This document shows positions 13,790 to 19,644 of a stretch of DNA of 43,918 nt, piece by piece. The translations under genes were made by a program, and so were the position numbers. The stretch spans positions 1 through 43,918 of the forward strand of contig JACRJT010000033.1 in NCBI GenBank assembly GCA_016215465.1. The letters run 5' to 3'. This stretch comes from Nitrososphaerota archaeon. Lineage in GTDB: Archaea; Thermoproteota; Nitrososphaeria; Nitrososphaerales; Nitrosopumilaceae. The notes beneath the pieces were generated by a model that saw nothing but the letters and a program-made list of their open reading frames with translations, did not search any database and was not told where the DNA came from. How positions within the stretch are numbered: the stretch's first letter is position 1; every line of letters starts with the position of its first letter.

Positions 13790-15140
13790 CATAGTTAATT
13801 TTGTGTATTATTCCGCAACCGAGGAGAAAAAAGAAAAGCCGGCCCAAAAACCAAGCGATGCTGACCAAAAGACACTTGAGAAAATTCTGCAAACTCTGGC
13901 AAATCAATCAATGCGCGAAAAAAACATCAGCCTAGAGGAACTGGAAAACATTCTTCAAAACGCAATAAATGATCTGGGACATGATCCCGCACAAGCCATG
14001 TCTGTGGATACGCCAAAAAATGACGACACAAAACCCATAACAAAATACCTAATTGAAAAAGGCTATCTGCGTGACGAAAAAAACTGGCTGACAAAAAAGG
14101 GCTTTCTTGCGGTCGGAAACCAAATACTCCGCAATCTGATGAATGATCTTAAAACAGACGAGTTTGGCCTGCATGAAACAAAGAAAATTGGCTCAGGAAC
14201 AACCGTTCTGGATACTAGTAAAAAGTTTGAGATTGGAAATGATCTAAAGTTTCTCAATGTTCCAAGTACAATTCTAAACACTATACTGCGAGTTTCAAAA
14301 AATAACCCCACCCTGAAATTCCCACTAGATATTGACATAGATGACTTTGAAGAATTTGAGACGGCTAACGACGTTAGGGCATCAGTTGTGTACTGCATAG
14401 ACCTAAGTTCCACAATGAAGTCGTCTCTGGCAAATTCTGGAATGAGCAGAATAGAGGCAGCTAAAAGGGCGCTGTGGAGCCTTTACATTTTAAACAACAA
14501 GTTCTTTCCAAACGATTCAGTATCAGTAATTGGATTTGCGTCTATGGCCTCTGTGATTGACCCGTACGACATACCGTTCCTAAAAACATATGATGCAAAT
14601 GACGACTTTTTGCACTATACCAACTATCAGGCTGCATTTAGGCTGGCAAAAAAAATTCTGCTAAAAAACGCAGCGCAAAACAAGCGAATCGTACTGATAA
14701 CAGACGGCCAGCCAAGCGCATGCTTTGTAGACACTGAACACCAAAAGAACAAGATTCTCTCTGAAAAACCATACTCGAACTTTTATGCTCCAAACGAATC
14801 ACTGCTATCAAAAATAAAGCAAGAGCGCAACATCAAAATTCACAACGACAAAAATAGCCTAGTCTATCTCTGTTACAAGTACAAAAAAGTCGATCCCAAA
14901 GTACACGAGCAAACGCTTGCTGAGGCAAAAAAATGCAGGCGCGAAAACATTGACATTGACACAATTGTGGTAAGCGAGGAAACGGATCTGCTGGCATATG
15001 TGCAGGAAATGGAGAAGGAATTTTCCGGCCGCACATACCACATAAACCAAAACAACATGGACAAGGTACTAGTAATTGACTATCTGTTTAATACCAAGAA
15101 GATATTAAGTTCTAAAAACAACTGGAATTTAAATGGCTGA
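13776..15140 (+). CDS. VWA-domain protein, partner of the AAA+ ATPase
   Basis: VWA protein of 454 residues, ChlD/CobT-like in design. Seen: acidic and Gln-rich helical N-terminal half (1-195) with no membrane segment, then a VWA domain from about 200 with metal-ion site D209-x-S211-x-T213, T282 and D310 (LITDGQPS). The MIDAS is complete, so metal-dependent binding to a partner is likely. It overlaps the ATPase gene by 14 bp and the following small gene by 8 bp, so the three are surely one transcript. By family knowledge such pairs load metals (Mg, Co) into tetrapyrroles or activate enzymes; cobaltochelatase-like work is possible here but not shown. Confidence 0.88.
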   Translation: MPLRDIVNFVYYSATEEKKEKPAQKPSDADQKTLEKILQTLANQSMREKNISLEELENILQNAINDLGHDPAQAMSVDTPKNDDTKPITKYLIEKGYLRDEKNWLTKKGFLAVGNQILRNLMNDLKTDEFGLHETKKIGSGTTVLDTSKKFEIGNDLKFLNVPSTILNTILRVSKNNPTLKFPLDIDIDDFEEFETANDVRASVVYCIDLSSTMKSSLANSGMSRIEAAKRALWSLYILNNKFFPNDSVSVIGFASMASVIDPYDIPFLKTYDANDDFLHYTNYQAAFRLAKKILLKNAAQNKRIVLITDGQPSACFVDTEHQKNKILSEKPYSNFYAPNESLLSKIKQERNIKIHNDKNSLVYLCYKYKKVDPKVHEQTLAEAKKCRRENIDIDTIVVSEETDLLAYVQEMEKEFSGRTYHINQNNMDKVLVIDYLFNTKKILSSKNNWNLNG

Positions 15141-15429
15141 ATTTGACAAAGAAAAAATAATCGAATGCATCTTTGACCCAGACATATCTGTCGTTTTAGC
15201 TGAGCTTGAAAGCGGTGGAAAGGAATTATCATATCTAGCAGAAAAAATTGGCGTTACTGAGGATGAAATCAAAAACCGGCTCGCATATCTAATAGATTGT
15301 AACCTTGTTAAAGTCAAGTCTTTAGTTTATTCTATCGATATTGAAAAGCTTGCCAAAATAATGGAAGGCGACGAAAACTATGAAAACGTAACGGATGGAC
15401 TAACAAAGCTAGACAGCTATCTTAACTGA
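15133..15429 (+). CDS. small winged-helix-like protein
   Basis: Protein of 98 residues with an ArsR/winged-helix-like pattern: LSYLAEKIGVTEDEIKNRLAYLIDCNLVKVKS near 33-65 reads as helix-turn-helix plus wing. No metal-binding Cys or His set is visible. It overlaps the VWA gene by 8 bp and is the last gene of that operon; it could regulate the operon or act as a protein-binding adaptor. Its 3' end overlaps the convergent membrane-protein gene by 13 bp. Confidence 0.75.
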   Translation: MAEFDKEKIIECIFDPDISVVLAELESGGKELSYLAEKIGVTEDEIKNRLAYLIDCNLVKVKSLVYSIDIEKLAKIMEGDENYENVTDGLTKLDSYLN

Positions 15430-15926
15430 GCCTTCTTTCTACTCTTTAATGCAAAAATACCGGAAACCACGACACCTGCAAATCCTGAAAGTATGAACAT
15501 CTGCCCGAGATAGTTTAATGAAATTATTATCTTGTCTGGCATGTGGGTGAGCCCTATGATTGCGTGGACCTCTGTCTGTTTTTCGTTTTCCAATTCCAGC
15601 CTATAGGTTCCTTTTGCCGGAATGGCAAATTCCTCCTCTGTGTTTTTCTGCTCAATTCTCTTTGTTGATATGATTTGGTTGCTTGGATCAAATAGTTTTG
15701 CGACCAGACTTGCATCGGCAAACCCCTCTGACTGGACAACAAATACCGCAGTATCGCTAATTGAAGGATCTAGCTCCTTTGTTATCTGGATTGGTGCAGT
15801 GCCGTTGAGGATTGCCTCGTTATACATGACGTCTTTGGTTACAAGGCTTGTGCCGTAATACGACATCACCATACCTACCGCTACTAGCAAGCCTGCGATT
15901 AAAATGACAATGTGTGATTTTTGCAT
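15417..15926 (-). CDS. membrane-anchored beta-sandwich protein
   Basis: Protein of 169 residues with an N-terminal membrane segment (about 5-27), an extracytoplasmic domain of about 100 residues with alternating hydrophobic pattern suggesting a beta-sandwich, and a C-terminal membrane segment (about 138-160) before a basic end (SRKKAQLR). Family not recognised. Start ATG at 15926; a TATA-like element on this strand near 15947-15957 would make the message leaderless. Confidence 0.75.
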   Translation of the reverse strand: MQKSHIVILIAGLLVAVGMVMSYYGTSLVTKDVMYNEAILNGTAPIQITKELDPSISDTAVFVVQSEGFADASLVAKLFDPSNQIISTKRIEQKNTEEEFAIPAKGTYRLELENEKQTEVHAIIGLTHMPDKIIISLNYLGQMFILSGFAGVVVSGIFALKSRKKAQLR

Positions 15927-16008
15927 TATTTATCGAGGCTTACACGCTCTATATTGGATTAACGCTCTGACTTGGACTGGGTATGATCTGATGGTTTTTC
16001 TAGGAAAT

Positions 16009-16041
16009 TTAGCCTAGGCTAATAAATTTAGCCTAGGCTAA
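16009..16041. promoter_or_regulatory. twin 14-bp palindromic operators before the copper oxidase-ZIP operon
   Basis: Two perfect copies of TTAGCCTAGGCTAA, at 16009-16022 and 16028-16041, inside an 18-bp direct repeat that starts AAATTTAGCC (16005-16022 and 16024-16041). Centres are 19 bp apart, near two helix turns, so two dimers could bind the same face. The second box touches the TATA element at 16042. The sequence resembles boxes of DtxR/MntR-type metal-dependent repressors (TTAG...CTAA), which fits the metal genes downstream. That assignment is inference. Confidence 0.75.
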
Positions 16042-16050
16042 CTTTTAAAT
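16042..16050 (+). promoter_or_regulatory. TATA box of the multicopper oxidase operon
   Basis: CTTTTAAAT directly after the second palindrome; predicted transcript start near 16071. A repressor bound at the palindrome would block TBP/TFB. Confidence 0.6.
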
Positions 16051-16066
16051 AGAGAAAAACCGTAAT

Positions 16067-17104
16067 TTGTGTAGTAACGTCTTGAATCGCTTCTCAAAAA
16101 TGCTATTTATCCTAGTAGTAACTGCGATTTTGACTACGTTTTATTTTGCCTATCCAAATTCCAGCAATGCGAACACTGGGGAAAAAACATTCCTTTCACA
16201 CAATGGTGCAGTGATTAAAACCACTGGAGATATTTTGGATCCTGTTTATCTGCCACAAACAGTGGAATTTGATCCGGACAAATATCTGAGGGAATTCAAC
16301 TATGGCCGAGTATCAAAGCTATCTGATGGTACAACCCTACGCGAGTTTACAATAATTGCAGAAGATGACAAAATAATGGAAATCTCCCCTGGTGTATTCT
16401 ATAATGTATGGACGTTTAATGGAACTGTTCCAGGTCCTACAATTAGGGCAACAGAAGGAGATCTTGTGAGAATACACTTCATAAATAATGGTGCCCGTTC
16501 TCACACGATGCACTTTCATGGAGAACATCCTGCTGAAATGGACGGCGTCTTTGAAATTGTTGGAGCCGGAGGCGGTCAATTCACATATGAGTGGATTGCA
16601 GGGCCAGTAGGCGTTCATCCATACCACTGCCATGTGATGCCTCTTGAGGAACACATCATACACGGCCTGTACGGCGTCTACATTGTTGATCCAAAGGAAG
16701 GCAGGCCTCAAGCAGACGAAATGGTCATGGTACTAAACGGATTTGACACTGACTTTGACACTGAAAACAATTTTTATGCGGCAAATACAATTCCGTTTTA
16801 CTATCAGCATCACCCAATCCAAATCAACACAAACGAACTCATACGCGTGTATGTGGTTAACATGGTTGAGTTTGATCCGATAAACAACTTACATCTGCAT
16901 GGGAACCTATACCAATACTATCCAACTGGAACTAGTATGGTCCCGTCTACTTTTACTGACATGATCACCCTTTCACAAACGGAGCGTGGAATAATGGAAT
17001 TTAGCTATTCGTATCCTGGAAAATACCTGTTTCATGCGCACAAGGTAGAGTTTTCAGAAAAGGGCTGGACTGGATTATTCTTGGCAAAGAACACGGAGAA
17101 ATAA
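16067..17104 (+). CDS. two-domain multicopper oxidase
   Basis: Secreted or membrane-anchored multicopper oxidase of 345 residues. Seen: N-terminal hydrophobic anchor or signal (about 11-30); first cupredoxin domain with HTMHFHGEHP (H146, H149, H151) and HPYHCHVMPLEEH (H184, H187, C188, H189, H196), including a type 1 copper Cys; second cupredoxin domain with HLHG (H276, H278) and FHAHKVEF (H323, H325). This is the short two-domain laccase/nitrite-reductase-like type, not the three-domain laccase. Likely oxidises Cu(I), Fe(II) or Mn(II), or a nitrogen intermediate, outside the membrane. The start could be TTG 16067, TTG 16082 or ATG 16100; the TATA box at 16042 slightly favours 16082. Followed 12 bp later by a ZIP transporter. 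Confidence 0.9.
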   Translation: MCSNVLNRFSKMLFILVVTAILTTFYFAYPNSSNANTGEKTFLSHNGAVIKTTGDILDPVYLPQTVEFDPDKYLREFNYGRVSKLSDGTTLREFTIIAEDDKIMEISPGVFYNVWTFNGTVPGPTIRATEGDLVRIHFINNGARSHTMHFHGEHPAEMDGVFEIVGAGGGQFTYEWIAGPVGVHPYHCHVMPLEEHIIHGLYGVYIVDPKEGRPQADEMVMVLNGFDTDFDTENNFYAANTIPFYYQHHPIQINTNELIRVYVVNMVEFDPINNLHLHGNLYQYYPTGTSMVPSTFTDMITLSQTERGIMEFSYSYPGKYLFHAHKVEFSEKGWTGLFLAKNTEK

Positions 17105-17116
17105 CTGATCAGTGCC

Positions 17117-18289
17117 ATGGAAGAACAAAAAAGATCAAAGGCAAAACTAATTGCAAGTGGACTGATTCCTTTTAGCTTTCTAATTGTCATGCTTGTGTAC
17201 ATTGTTGGTCCTGGCTCTACTATGATTGATCTTGGGGTAGCGCTTCCTGAGCTGACCATTGAAAAAATAGACTTTATCGAATCGGAAATACTAGTAACTG
17301 TCAGAAACACAGGACCAATCCCAGTGGATGTAACCGTTGCAGATGTAAACGACAGAATTCAGCCTGCCGCAATGGAGCCTGACAAGCATTTGGAAAGATT
17401 TGAAACGGCACTAGTAAAAATTCCATTTAGCTGGAACGAAGGCGAGCCATACACGATAGGACTCACAACATCTGATGGAACTAGATTTGAAAAAGGCGTA
17501 GATGCAGCAGCGCTTGCACTAAAGCCAAATTCGGAGACTGTGGGATTTTTGTTATTGATTGGAACATACGTTGGGGTAATACCAATTTTGATTGGCCTGA
17601 TGTGGATTCCATTCATTAGAAAAATCAGCAATCAAAAATACATTTTTTTCTTGGCACTAACTGTTGGATTGTTGCTATTCCTGGGAATAGATGCAATTGA
17701 GGAGGCACTTGAAGTTTCCTCAGAAAGCCTTGCAGGCACGTTTAACGGACCATTGCTGATAGCCACAACAGTTCTGATATCGTTGTTTGGCCTGTATTAT
17801 GCCGGGGAACGACTGACAAGAAAATCAAGTCTTACAAAACTCGCAAATCCGTACTCTGTTGCATTGATGGTTTCAATTGGAATCGGCCTTCACAATCTTG
17901 GAGAAGGCCTTGCAATTGGGGCAGCAATAGGCCTAGGCCAAGTGGCACTGAGCACGTTTTTGATAATTGGATTTGCGCTACATAACACTACTGAGGGAAT
18001 TGCAATTGCAGCACCCATTGCAAAGGAAAAAACATTCATTCGAAAAATAATTGGACTTGGCTTGATTGCGGGAGTACCTGCAATTTTTGGCACCTGGATT
18101 GGAAGCTTTGTCTACTCACCGTTTACCTCTGTTATCTTTTTATCAGTTGGCGCAGGCGCAATTTTCCAAGTAGTAATAGTGCTATCAAAGTGGCTTAGAG
18201 AATACGACAGAAGTTTTTCAAGCACTCCGGTAGTTACAGGAATTGCAATCGGTATGCTGATAATGTATCTTACCGGAATCCTAGTCTAA
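17117..18289 (+). CDS. ZIP-family metal transporter with extracellular domain
   Basis: Divalent metal importer of 390 residues. Seen: N-terminal membrane segment (about 11-31), an extracytoplasmic domain of roughly 105 residues (35-140) with a CARDB-like look (VTVRNTGPIPVDV), then about seven membrane spans. The metal-binding helices carry HNLGEG (H259, N260, E263) and HNTTEG (H289, N290, E293), the ZIP binuclear site. The extra N-terminal domain is unusual for prokaryotic ZIPs and could take metal from the oxidase encoded just upstream. It shares the twin-palindrome promoter. The stop codon overlaps that of the convergent CDF exporter by 4 bp. Confidence 0.9.
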   Translation: MEEQKRSKAKLIASGLIPFSFLIVMLVYIVGPGSTMIDLGVALPELTIEKIDFIESEILVTVRNTGPIPVDVTVADVNDRIQPAAMEPDKHLERFETALVKIPFSWNEGEPYTIGLTTSDGTRFEKGVDAAALALKPNSETVGFLLLIGTYVGVIPILIGLMWIPFIRKISNQKYIFFLALTVGLLLFLGIDAIEEALEVSSESLAGTFNGPLLIATTVLISLFGLYYAGERLTRKSSLTKLANPYSVALMVSIGIGLHNLGEGLAIGAAIGLGQVALSTFLIIGFALHNTTEGIAIAAPIAKEKTFIRKIIGLGLIAGVPAIFGTWIGSFVYSPFTSVIFLSVGAGAIFQVVIVLSKWLREYDRSFSSTPVVTGIAIGMLIMYLTGILV

Positions 18290-19644
18290 AACGGCTCTGG
18301 ATGTATGGTTATGACTGAATTCTTAAAATGACTTCGTATCTTTTGCTCTATCTGAGATGTCAAGTCATGGACGCTTTCAATTGAGAGGTCCTTGTCAAAA
18401 GAACAGTCAATGTCAATTTTTAGCAGATCATCAAAATACAAAGTTACTATATTCCCAATTTTCTTTATCTCGCCGTATTCCTTTAGGATCTCAAGTATCT
18501 TTTGGTCGGTTTTCTTGTAGTCTGACTTGAGAGTAGTTGGTATTGCGATGTGAGGCTCTAGGTGAATCGTGACATGGTTGATATCGGGAATGGTATCAAA
18601 AATTTTTTGCTCTATTTCCTCTGATACTTTATGGGCCTGTTCTAGATTCATCTCTCTGTTTACCATCACGTGTAGGCTCACGTATCGCATTTGATCCGAG
18701 GCGTAATAACTCACATTGTGCACACCCATAACACCTGGAACGTCTGATGCAATTTCATAAATTTTTGAATCCTTTGGAACGTCCTTCCAGCTTGGCTCAA
18801 AATGAATCGTAATTTCCGAGTTTGTGATCTCTTTTTTGATGTTTCTCTCAACGGTATCGCTTATCTCATGTGCCCTCTCAAAGCTTACGTTTCCTCGAAG
18901 CGACATGGTGATATCTACAAAGAACATGTCCCCCGACCTTCGCATGAGAACCGAACTTGCGTCAAGCACTCCTTGGGTGGCAAGTGTAATTCCTTTCACT
19001 TTGCTTACAAGCTCAGGTGAAATTATGTCAGTCAAGTCAAGCGCAGTTCTGTGGATTAGCTTTAGACTCAAAAATACAAGAAGTATCCCGAGAAACAACG
19101 CTGCAACAAAGTCTCCGTCGTGAAAGCCAAATGATACTAGAACAATTCCTGCAATGACAACTAGCGTAGAGCCCAGATCCATAGCCGCATGATAAAAGTC
19201 TGCTTTGAGCGTAACGCCGCCAATCTTCTTAATCGATCTGTTCAGGAGTACTATCCTAAAGATATCGGTGCATATCGTGTAGAGCGCGGCAATTAGAACA
19301 AGGGTGGTTGGAAATGCTGATGGCGGTGGACTCTGAATTCTGATTACAGCCTCGACAATAAAAAAACACGCAATTAGAAATATTGCTATTCCGCCAATTA
19401 GTCCCCCAAGCGATTCAATTTTTCCGTGGCCGTAGGTATGTTCTGCATCTGGGGGCTTTATTGCAAATCTTGCTGCCAATAACAATACCACCGTAACAAT
19501 GCTGTCAAGTAACGCATGAATGCTGTCGGTGAGCAGTGCAAGGCTGTTTGAAAAAATACCAAAAACAAGTTCCACTATAAACGCAGAAAGTATTGCAAAC
19601 AGCGAGAGCTTTAGGGTTTTAGTCCTTTGAACAAGCATTGGCAA
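18286..19644 (-). CDS. CDF-family metal exporter with three tandem C-terminal domains
   Basis: Cation diffusion facilitator of 452 residues. Seen: six membrane spans within about 10-205 and transport-site residues H43/D47 in TDSIHALLD and H152/D156 in FYHAAMD, the HDHD set typical of zinc exporters. The cytoplasmic part holds three consecutive ZT-dimer-like domains (about 211-284, 292-364, 377-451), each ending in TIHxEP (279-284, 359-364, 446-451); most CDF proteins have one. First codon TTG at 19644 or the ATG two codons later (19638). Transcribed toward the ZIP importer, with overlapping stops. Confidence 0.9.
   Translation of the reverse strand: MPMLVQRTKTLKLSLFAILSAFIVELVFGIFSNSLALLTDSIHALLDSIVTVVLLLAARFAIKPPDAEHTYGHGKIESLGGLIGGIAIFLIACFFIVEAVIRIQSPPPSAFPTTLVLIAALYTICTDIFRIVLLNRSIKKIGGVTLKADFYHAAMDLGSTLVVIAGIVLVSFGFHDGDFVAALFLGILLVFLSLKLIHRTALDLTDIISPELVSKVKGITLATQGVLDASSVLMRRSGDMFFVDITMSLRGNVSFERAHEISDTVERNIKKEITNSEITIHFEPSWKDVPKDSKIYEIASDVPGVMGVHNVSYYASDQMRYVSLHVMVNREMNLEQAHKVSEEIEQKIFDTIPDINHVTIHLEPHIAIPTTLKSDYKKTDQKILEILKEYGEIKKIGNIVTLYFDDLLKIDIDCSFDKDLSIESVHDLTSQIEQKIRSHFKNSVITIHPEPF

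Follow-up and report, generated by a model that had tools for sequence, protein, structure and literature searches.

Twin palindromes at the TATA box of an archaeal MCO1-ZIP operon are very probably binding sites of a manganese-sensing MntR-type repressor

In the DNA analysed here, a stretch of 43,918 nucleotides from a member of the Nitrosopumilaceae (the window), two copies of one palindrome lie between the gene of a multicopper oxidase (MCO1) with its partner, a ZIP permease, and the upstream neighbours (Table 1). Which regulator reads these boxes, and what do they tell us about the oxidase? On the evidence of sequence comparisons, it is very probable that a manganese-sensing repressor binds the twin palindromes. 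Since the paired sites recur, throughout ammonia-oxidising archaea, before three metal importers that are unrelated to one another, MCO1 probably takes part in metal uptake. The analysis proposes which regulator, operator, and targets serve metal homeostasis in one of Earth's most abundant microbe groups, and it bears on an open question of nitrification, the role of the much-debated MCO1.

Table 1 Features of the operator region, its neighbours, and the candidate regulator. Positions refer to the window, except for the last line
Feature	Position	Strand	Remarks
Distal operator box	16009..16022	.	Perfect palindrome TTAGCCTAGGCTAA; expected 18-bp dimer footprint 16007-16024
Linker TAAAT	16023..16027	.	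5 bp; sets the 19-bp pitch; NAAA[GT] in relatives
Proximal operator box	16028..16041	.	TTAGCCTAGGCTAA again; expected 18-bp footprint 16026-16043; covers the BRE position, touches TATA
TATA-like octamer TTTAAATA	16044..16051	+	Assigned by position; T/A-rich, conserved directly 3' of the proximal box
Two-domain multicopper oxidase, MCO1 lineage	16067..17104	+	Start TTG 16067, TTG 16082, or ATG 16100; Cu-oxidase_3 and Cu-oxidase_2 above Pfam cut-offs
ZIP-family divalent metal permease, second gene of the operon	17117..18289	+	Weak Pfam Zip match, 26.8 bits (cut-off 35.1); ZupT-like, 44 bits
CDF cation-efflux transporter, convergent, conserved neighbour	18286..19644	-	TIGR01297 229.7 bits, above cut-off; adjoins in several relatives
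169-aa membrane protein, divergent, common intergenic region	15417..15926	-	No Pfam match; in most relatives
98-aa conserved winged-helix protein	15133-15429		No Pfam match; beside a VWA/ATPase gene pair; near MCO1-ZIP in many genomes
MntR-type DtxR-family protein, 153 aa	C12:13454-13912 (genome G000; = locus L135:1279-1740)	-	Unlinked to the operator here

The preliminary description of this DNA had claimed two perfect copies of a 14-mer, the second touching the TATA element. Both copies are without mismatch, and their centres are 19 bp apart. The second is followed by C-T and then by TTTAAATA, so that its core stops 2 bp short of the TATA element, which would be reached at its edge by the expected 18-bp footprint. 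The idea of two dimers on one DNA face holds only approximately: 19 bp correspond to about 1.8 helical turns, and the dyads are therefore about 70 degrees apart, although this is the spacing of cooperating MntR dimers. As also described, the core recurs inside the ZIP gene (TAGGCCTAGGCCAA at 17928, 3 mismatches). The window holds five matches to TTAGCCTAGGCTAA with up to 3 mismatches, whereas 1.22 are expected from shuffled sequences.

Genome-wide box searches were done by pattern matching with mismatches in the whole assembly (1.70 Mb, 53 contigs, 96% complete). The full 14-mer had been seen nowhere else in the window, and this can be extended to the genome, in which these two boxes are the only copies with 0 or 1 mismatch. 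The tandem form is unique as well, the sole match below 2 mismatches in a tandem-arm search being the MCO1-ZIP promoter. By both searches, the boxes are not scattered through the genome. Several candidates were rejected. Boxes with 2 mismatches at C21:19126 and C24:9517 lie in an ordinary intergenic setting and are taken as chance because a control pattern yields equally many matches. The only other tandem with 2 mismatches (C24:2166) has no palindromic symmetry, and at 3 mismatches, the tandem search gave 25 matches for the reversed control vs. 8. Single box matches at L123 and L125 are likewise ascribed to chance.

The adjacent genes had been called a copper oxidase-ZIP operon, and the domain matches agree, with the ZIP assignment being the weaker one. 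A two-domain multicopper oxidase adjoining a ZIP permease corresponds to MCO1, the multicopper oxidase lineage 1 of ammonia-oxidising archaea (AOA) as defined in PMC7785015 and PMC5767755, and we assign the gene to this lineage by these two features. The order of oxidase gene and ZIP gene is kept in relatives. A search of the window for boxes with up to 3 mismatches found no operator at the CDF gene's own promoter. The divergent 169-aa gene is not needed for the operator, because it is absent from L113, L131, L132, and the MntR-linked copies, all of which have operator and MCO-ZIP. A conserved TTTAGTTTAAACCTAATTTTT lies towards the other end of the intergenic region in the upstream regions of L012-L084 (e.g., L015, L020, L030); it is absent in the window's genus and is probably the promoter of the divergent gene.

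To judge conservation, we took the best 80 oxidase orthologs from public genome contigs (records from Nitrosotenuis, Nitrosarchaeum, Nitrosopumilus, Nitrosopelagicus, Nitrosotalea, Cenarchaeum, and unplaced thaumarchaeota) and tabulated 81 Nitrosopumilaceae loci. All 81 promoters have the box fused to the TATA element, and all 81 have a second box 19 bp upstream, which is usually weaker and often degenerate. A script found the pair at exactly 19 bp in 80 of the 81; in L050, it was recognized by eye further upstream of a truncated match. When spacings of 14-30 bp were scanned, 80 promoters had the pair at 19 bp and at most 27 at any other distance (24 bp), and only 0.04% of shuffled promoters carry it. 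In the proximal box, TTAG and the final AA are invariant across the tabulated promoters, and spacer positions 2-4 are A in 79/81. Several orthologous promoters have a third box at -38. The 81 loci are not independent because they come from the closest relatives; yet identities reach down to 71%, and the flanks have diverged.

The box also extends beyond this family. Among the Nitrososphaeraceae, 25 of 26 MCO1 promoters have a TATA-anchored box, typically TTAGNNTAGGCTAA-C-ATTTATTA; additional boxes or half-boxes at -19 and +19 are common. As the TATA-anchored box is found in both families, the arrangement probably predates the split between Nitrosopumilaceae and Nitrososphaeraceae. Conservation before the orthologous oxidase genes had been named in advance, beside a non-random spread in the genome, as a point on which the operator idea would stand or fall, and it holds in both families.

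MCO1 is not the only putative target. The tandem operator precedes three unrelated importers, namely MCO1-ZIP, a ZnuA-type ABC transporter, and NRAMP/MntH. MCO1 was found in 80/121 genomes and the MntH-type NRAMP, which passes the NCBIfam MntH subfamily cut-off, in 27/121; none of the 121 has both (Fisher p 5e-17, uncorrected for phylogeny). The swap from MCO1 to the MntH-type NRAMP is seen in genera g1, g14, g6, and g8. The 19-bp tandem is present in 25 of 28 MntH-type NRAMP promoters (27 at a looser limit) and in all six promoters of the ZnuA-type ABC operon, which occurs in six genomes. At L182, L183, L233, and L235, ZnuABC stands in the place of MCO1-ZIP amid its usual neighbours, i.e., at the ancestral MCO1 locus. 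The suggestion that the box marks a metal regulon needs to be modified accordingly: within the present genome, the regulon appears to comprise one promoter only, and it is between genomes that the importer under the operator varies.

The regulator had been thought to lie outside the window, and the candidate is indeed encoded elsewhere in the genome (Table 1). A Pfam search gave two DtxR-family proteins above cut-off. The 153-aa protein has the DtxR-type winged helix (PF01325 with 66.5 bits, cut-off 26) and the metal-binding/dimerisation domain (PF02742 with 52.3 bits, cut-off 27), has the length of a two-domain protein, and ends after domain 2 without an SH3/FeoA domain. Its best PDB match is B. 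subtilis MntR (E 1.4e-26, covering MntR 5-125), and MntR structures rank first among the fold matches of its AlphaFold model (pLDDT 85). The six metal ligands of MntR, D8, E11, H77, E99, E102, and H103, align to D28, E31, H97, E119, E122, and H123, and all six are kept in 52/52 archaeal homologs aligned with B. subtilis MntR. Against the NCBIfam MntR equivalog NF003025 (cut-off 138), the protein scores just below (131.7 bits), and three MntR homologs score above (143.6, 155, and 153.3 bits). The second DtxR-like protein (C44:8309), encoded elsewhere and about 34% identical to the MntR ortholog, is not favoured.

MntR orthologs are present in 114 of the 121 sampled Nitrosopumilaceae genomes and in 94 of the 96 good-quality ones. 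A few MntR-bearing genomes were without any of the three importers found here. As in the present genome, most Nitrosopumilaceae have their MntR gene unlinked to the operator, and at the promoter of the own MntR gene, no operator was found. An apparent MntR pseudogene in genera g6/g8 was discarded, as stops were reported where the alignment runs to the last residue and the frames at the two loci checked, L231 and L232, are full-length.

Additional MntR genes provide a physical link between this gene family and the operator. Nine extra copies in Nitrosopumilaceae (G041 twice, G107, G051, G028, G116, G118, G038, and G148) all lie immediately beside an operator, eight before an MCO1-ZIP operon and one before a ZnuA-type ABC operon. 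In five sampled Nitrososphaeraceae genomes (L273-L277), MntR follows MCO1 and ZIP as the third gene of their operon, and in three genomes of genus g8 (G106, G089, and G117; L228-L230), it diverges from MntH. Operator-linked MntR genes fall in at least three separate clades of the tree. The former likening of the boxes to DtxR/MntR-type operators is supported by the single MntR ortholog and this repeated linkage, and can be narrowed: the subgroup is MntR with its Mn-type ligands, not the iron-type DtxR/IdeR. Two further loci deserve mention. At L279 (G158, C3:152923-153366), the MntR copy next to MCO1-ZIP and an intact operator has decayed, six stops interrupting its frame, and L127:4074-5015 has cupin and MntR domains in one open frame immediately upstream of a ZnuABC operon with the operator, which is either a fusion or a mis-called frame.

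We therefore consider it likely, with good confidence, that the boxes are a tandem operator for two cooperating archaeal MntR dimers, which in their metal-loaded form, most likely with Mn(II), would repress MCO1-ZIP. When metal is sufficient, the loaded dimers would occupy both boxes at the 19-bp pitch and span 16007-16043, i.e., the BRE and the upstream TATA edge, thereby excluding TBP/TFB or RNA polymerase and keeping MCO1-ZIP silent. When metal is scarce, the repressor would leave, MCO1-ZIP would be expressed, and the ZIP permease would import the metal that is sensed. Mn(II) is favoured because of the MntR ligands and because MntH is an alternative target. TroR and DR2539 are DtxR-family proteins that answer to both Mn and Fe. 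As several family members respond to both metals, Fe(II) is possible, and the identity of the metal is a prediction. Copper is unlikely to be the direct signal.

This arrangement has a close counterpart in bacteria. In B. subtilis MntR-DNA structures, each dimer takes up 18 bp, and adjacent sites 1 bp apart give 19 bp from centre to centre; T is at position -7 in 19/20 half-sites, and the spacing at E. coli mntS is 19 bp, too (PMC11275975). The archaeal system shares with MntR of B. subtilis and E. coli (mneP, mneS, mntS) the family, the ligand set, and palindromes at a 19-bp pitch, and the invariant first T of TTAG corresponds to position -7. Also as in these bacteria, the predicted targets include MntH and a metal ABC importer, with the operator at their promoters in relatives. 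Unlike Bacillus MntR, the half-site is of the TTAG type, the promoter is an archaeal one with BRE and TATA, and the main predicted target is the multicopper oxidase-ZIP pair.

The half-site is reminiscent of DtxR/IdeR, with which the protein shares the fold superfamily. The single-dimer consensus of IdeR has 14 bp (TTAGGNNNNCCTAA, TTAG...CTAA; PMC8464063), and the archaeal box is likewise a putative 14-bp single-dimer site with TTAG/CTAA arms. In most archaeal proteins, the recognition helix has a proline equivalent to Pro39 of IdeR, one residue after Pro36 of MntR, and this position may account for the TTAG-type half-site. Iron-type ligands of DtxR/IdeR are Met10 and Cys102. In contrast, the archaeal protein has D and E at these positions, which are Mn-type ligands, and its 153 aa include no SH3-like domain; moreover, the archaeal boxes lie side by side, whereas two dimers of DtxR/IdeR overlap on one 19-bp site.

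Among archaea, MDR1 of Archaeoglobus fulgidus is, by its description, also a metal-dependent repressor at a promoter (PMC2995911). MDR1 reportedly leaves TBP/TFB in place and prevents the polymerase from being recruited; the present boxes occupy the BRE and the upstream TATA edge, which suggests exclusion of TBP/TFB rather than an MDR1-type block. The copper-limitation motif of N. viennensis (PMC7785015) resembles the operator in being an upstream motif of metal-related genes in ammonia-oxidising archaea, but its sequence is unrelated (TTCSGSMTTTGWACYANT), and the genes concerned are CopC/D and MCO4.

With the same regulator and operator, the metal sensed and imported could be Fe(II), and MCO1 would then be the ferroxidase partner of ZIP in the style of Fet3-Ftr1. 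A multicopper oxidase with a permease does resemble that system, as suggested for copper in PMC7785015, SCM1 has only the generalists Tro and ZIP and no Fe-specific importer (PMC6776035), NRAMP and TroR-type systems can serve Fe, and a TTAGGGTACCCTAA box precedes feoB in a distant member of the class. We still regard Fe(II) as rather unlikely, since the ligand set is of the MntR type (D8, E99) and not of the DtxR/IdeR type in all sequences checked and since the MntR of B. halodurans is selective for Mn and Cd against Fe (PMC6860424). Copper uptake under a copper-responsive regulator appears quite improbable. In copper-limited N. viennensis, MCO1 (log2 0.81) and its permease PERM_b (1.33) rise, and copper uptake by MCO and ZIP was proposed on this occasion, but the MCO1 patterns conflict in copper-limited N. 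maritimus (PMC7785015); the published Cu-response motif also differs from the boxes. Furthermore, the linked regulator is MntR-type, and the operator is also found on MntH-type NRAMP and ZnuA-type ABC operons. The MntR model does not require a copper link, and the modest response of N. viennensis may be indirect.

Archaeal activators act upstream of the BRE, and the tandem dimers just upstream of it could in principle aid TBP/TFB binding. B. subtilis MntR activates efflux genes via sites spaced by 19 bp (PMC11275975). Such recruitment has little probability here, as the proximal box overlaps the BRE and touches TATA, a further half-box in Nitrososphaeraceae runs over and past TATA, and all three target systems import metal, so that switching them on when metal is already sufficient would defeat their purpose. 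It is very improbable that another DNA-binding protein uses the boxes. One candidate, the 98-aa winged-helix protein, has a conserved place next to MCO1-ZIP in many genomes but is absent from other sites that keep the operator (L113, L132, MntR-linked copies of MCO1-ZIP, and MntH promoters at other genomic positions), and it has no Pfam match, whereas MntR genes repeatedly adjoin the operator.

For MCO1, two roles have been proposed: hydroxylamine oxidation (Kerou et al. 2016, as cited in PMC5767755) and, together with ZIP, copper uptake (PMC7785015). Common regulation with MntH and the ABC importer, and replacement by them, points to divalent-metal acquisition instead, and the evidence speaks against copper uptake or hydroxylamine oxidation as the main role of MCO1. 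With about even confidence, we propose that MCO1-ZIP is a new type of Mn (or Mn/Fe) importer, consisting of a ZIP permease helped by a secreted multicopper oxidase, and that it is controlled by an ancestral MntR tandem operator, which outlived the swap to MntH or a ZnuABC-type importer in several lineages; MCO1 would then be neither mainly for copper uptake nor the missing hydroxylamine-oxidising enzyme. ZIP is paired with a multicopper oxidase, whereas MntH and ZnuABC have no such partner. Neither the operator nor its regulator was found described for ammonia-oxidising archaea in the open-access full texts searched. Nitrosotalea is known to be without MCO1 and to have gained NRAMP and another ZIP (PMC5767755); given the common operator, this pattern can be read as replacement inside one regulon. 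An operator common to three importers is, to our knowledge, new relative to that gene-content pattern.

A few boxes and importers stand apart. The TTAGGGTACCCTAA box mentioned above (L238:1761-1774 in G129, from another family of the class) is a sister palindrome about 250 bp before feoB and possibly an iron-type DtxR operator; a second copy, at L239:3607, is not beside a metal gene. In several closely related genomes of genus g18, a single box TTAGCCTAGCCTAA lies directly before sufB (L120:4001, L121:769, and L122:2928) and may either have a function or be a chance inheritance. Another kind of NRAMP, type B, had no operator at the three loci checked, including the one of the present genome (L227:1423-2712; C6:62652-63773), and such an NRAMP can coexist with MCO1-ZIP. 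In G092, which belongs to the window's genus and is without MCO1-ZIP, there are two MntH-type NRAMP genes (L199 and L246), each with the operator.
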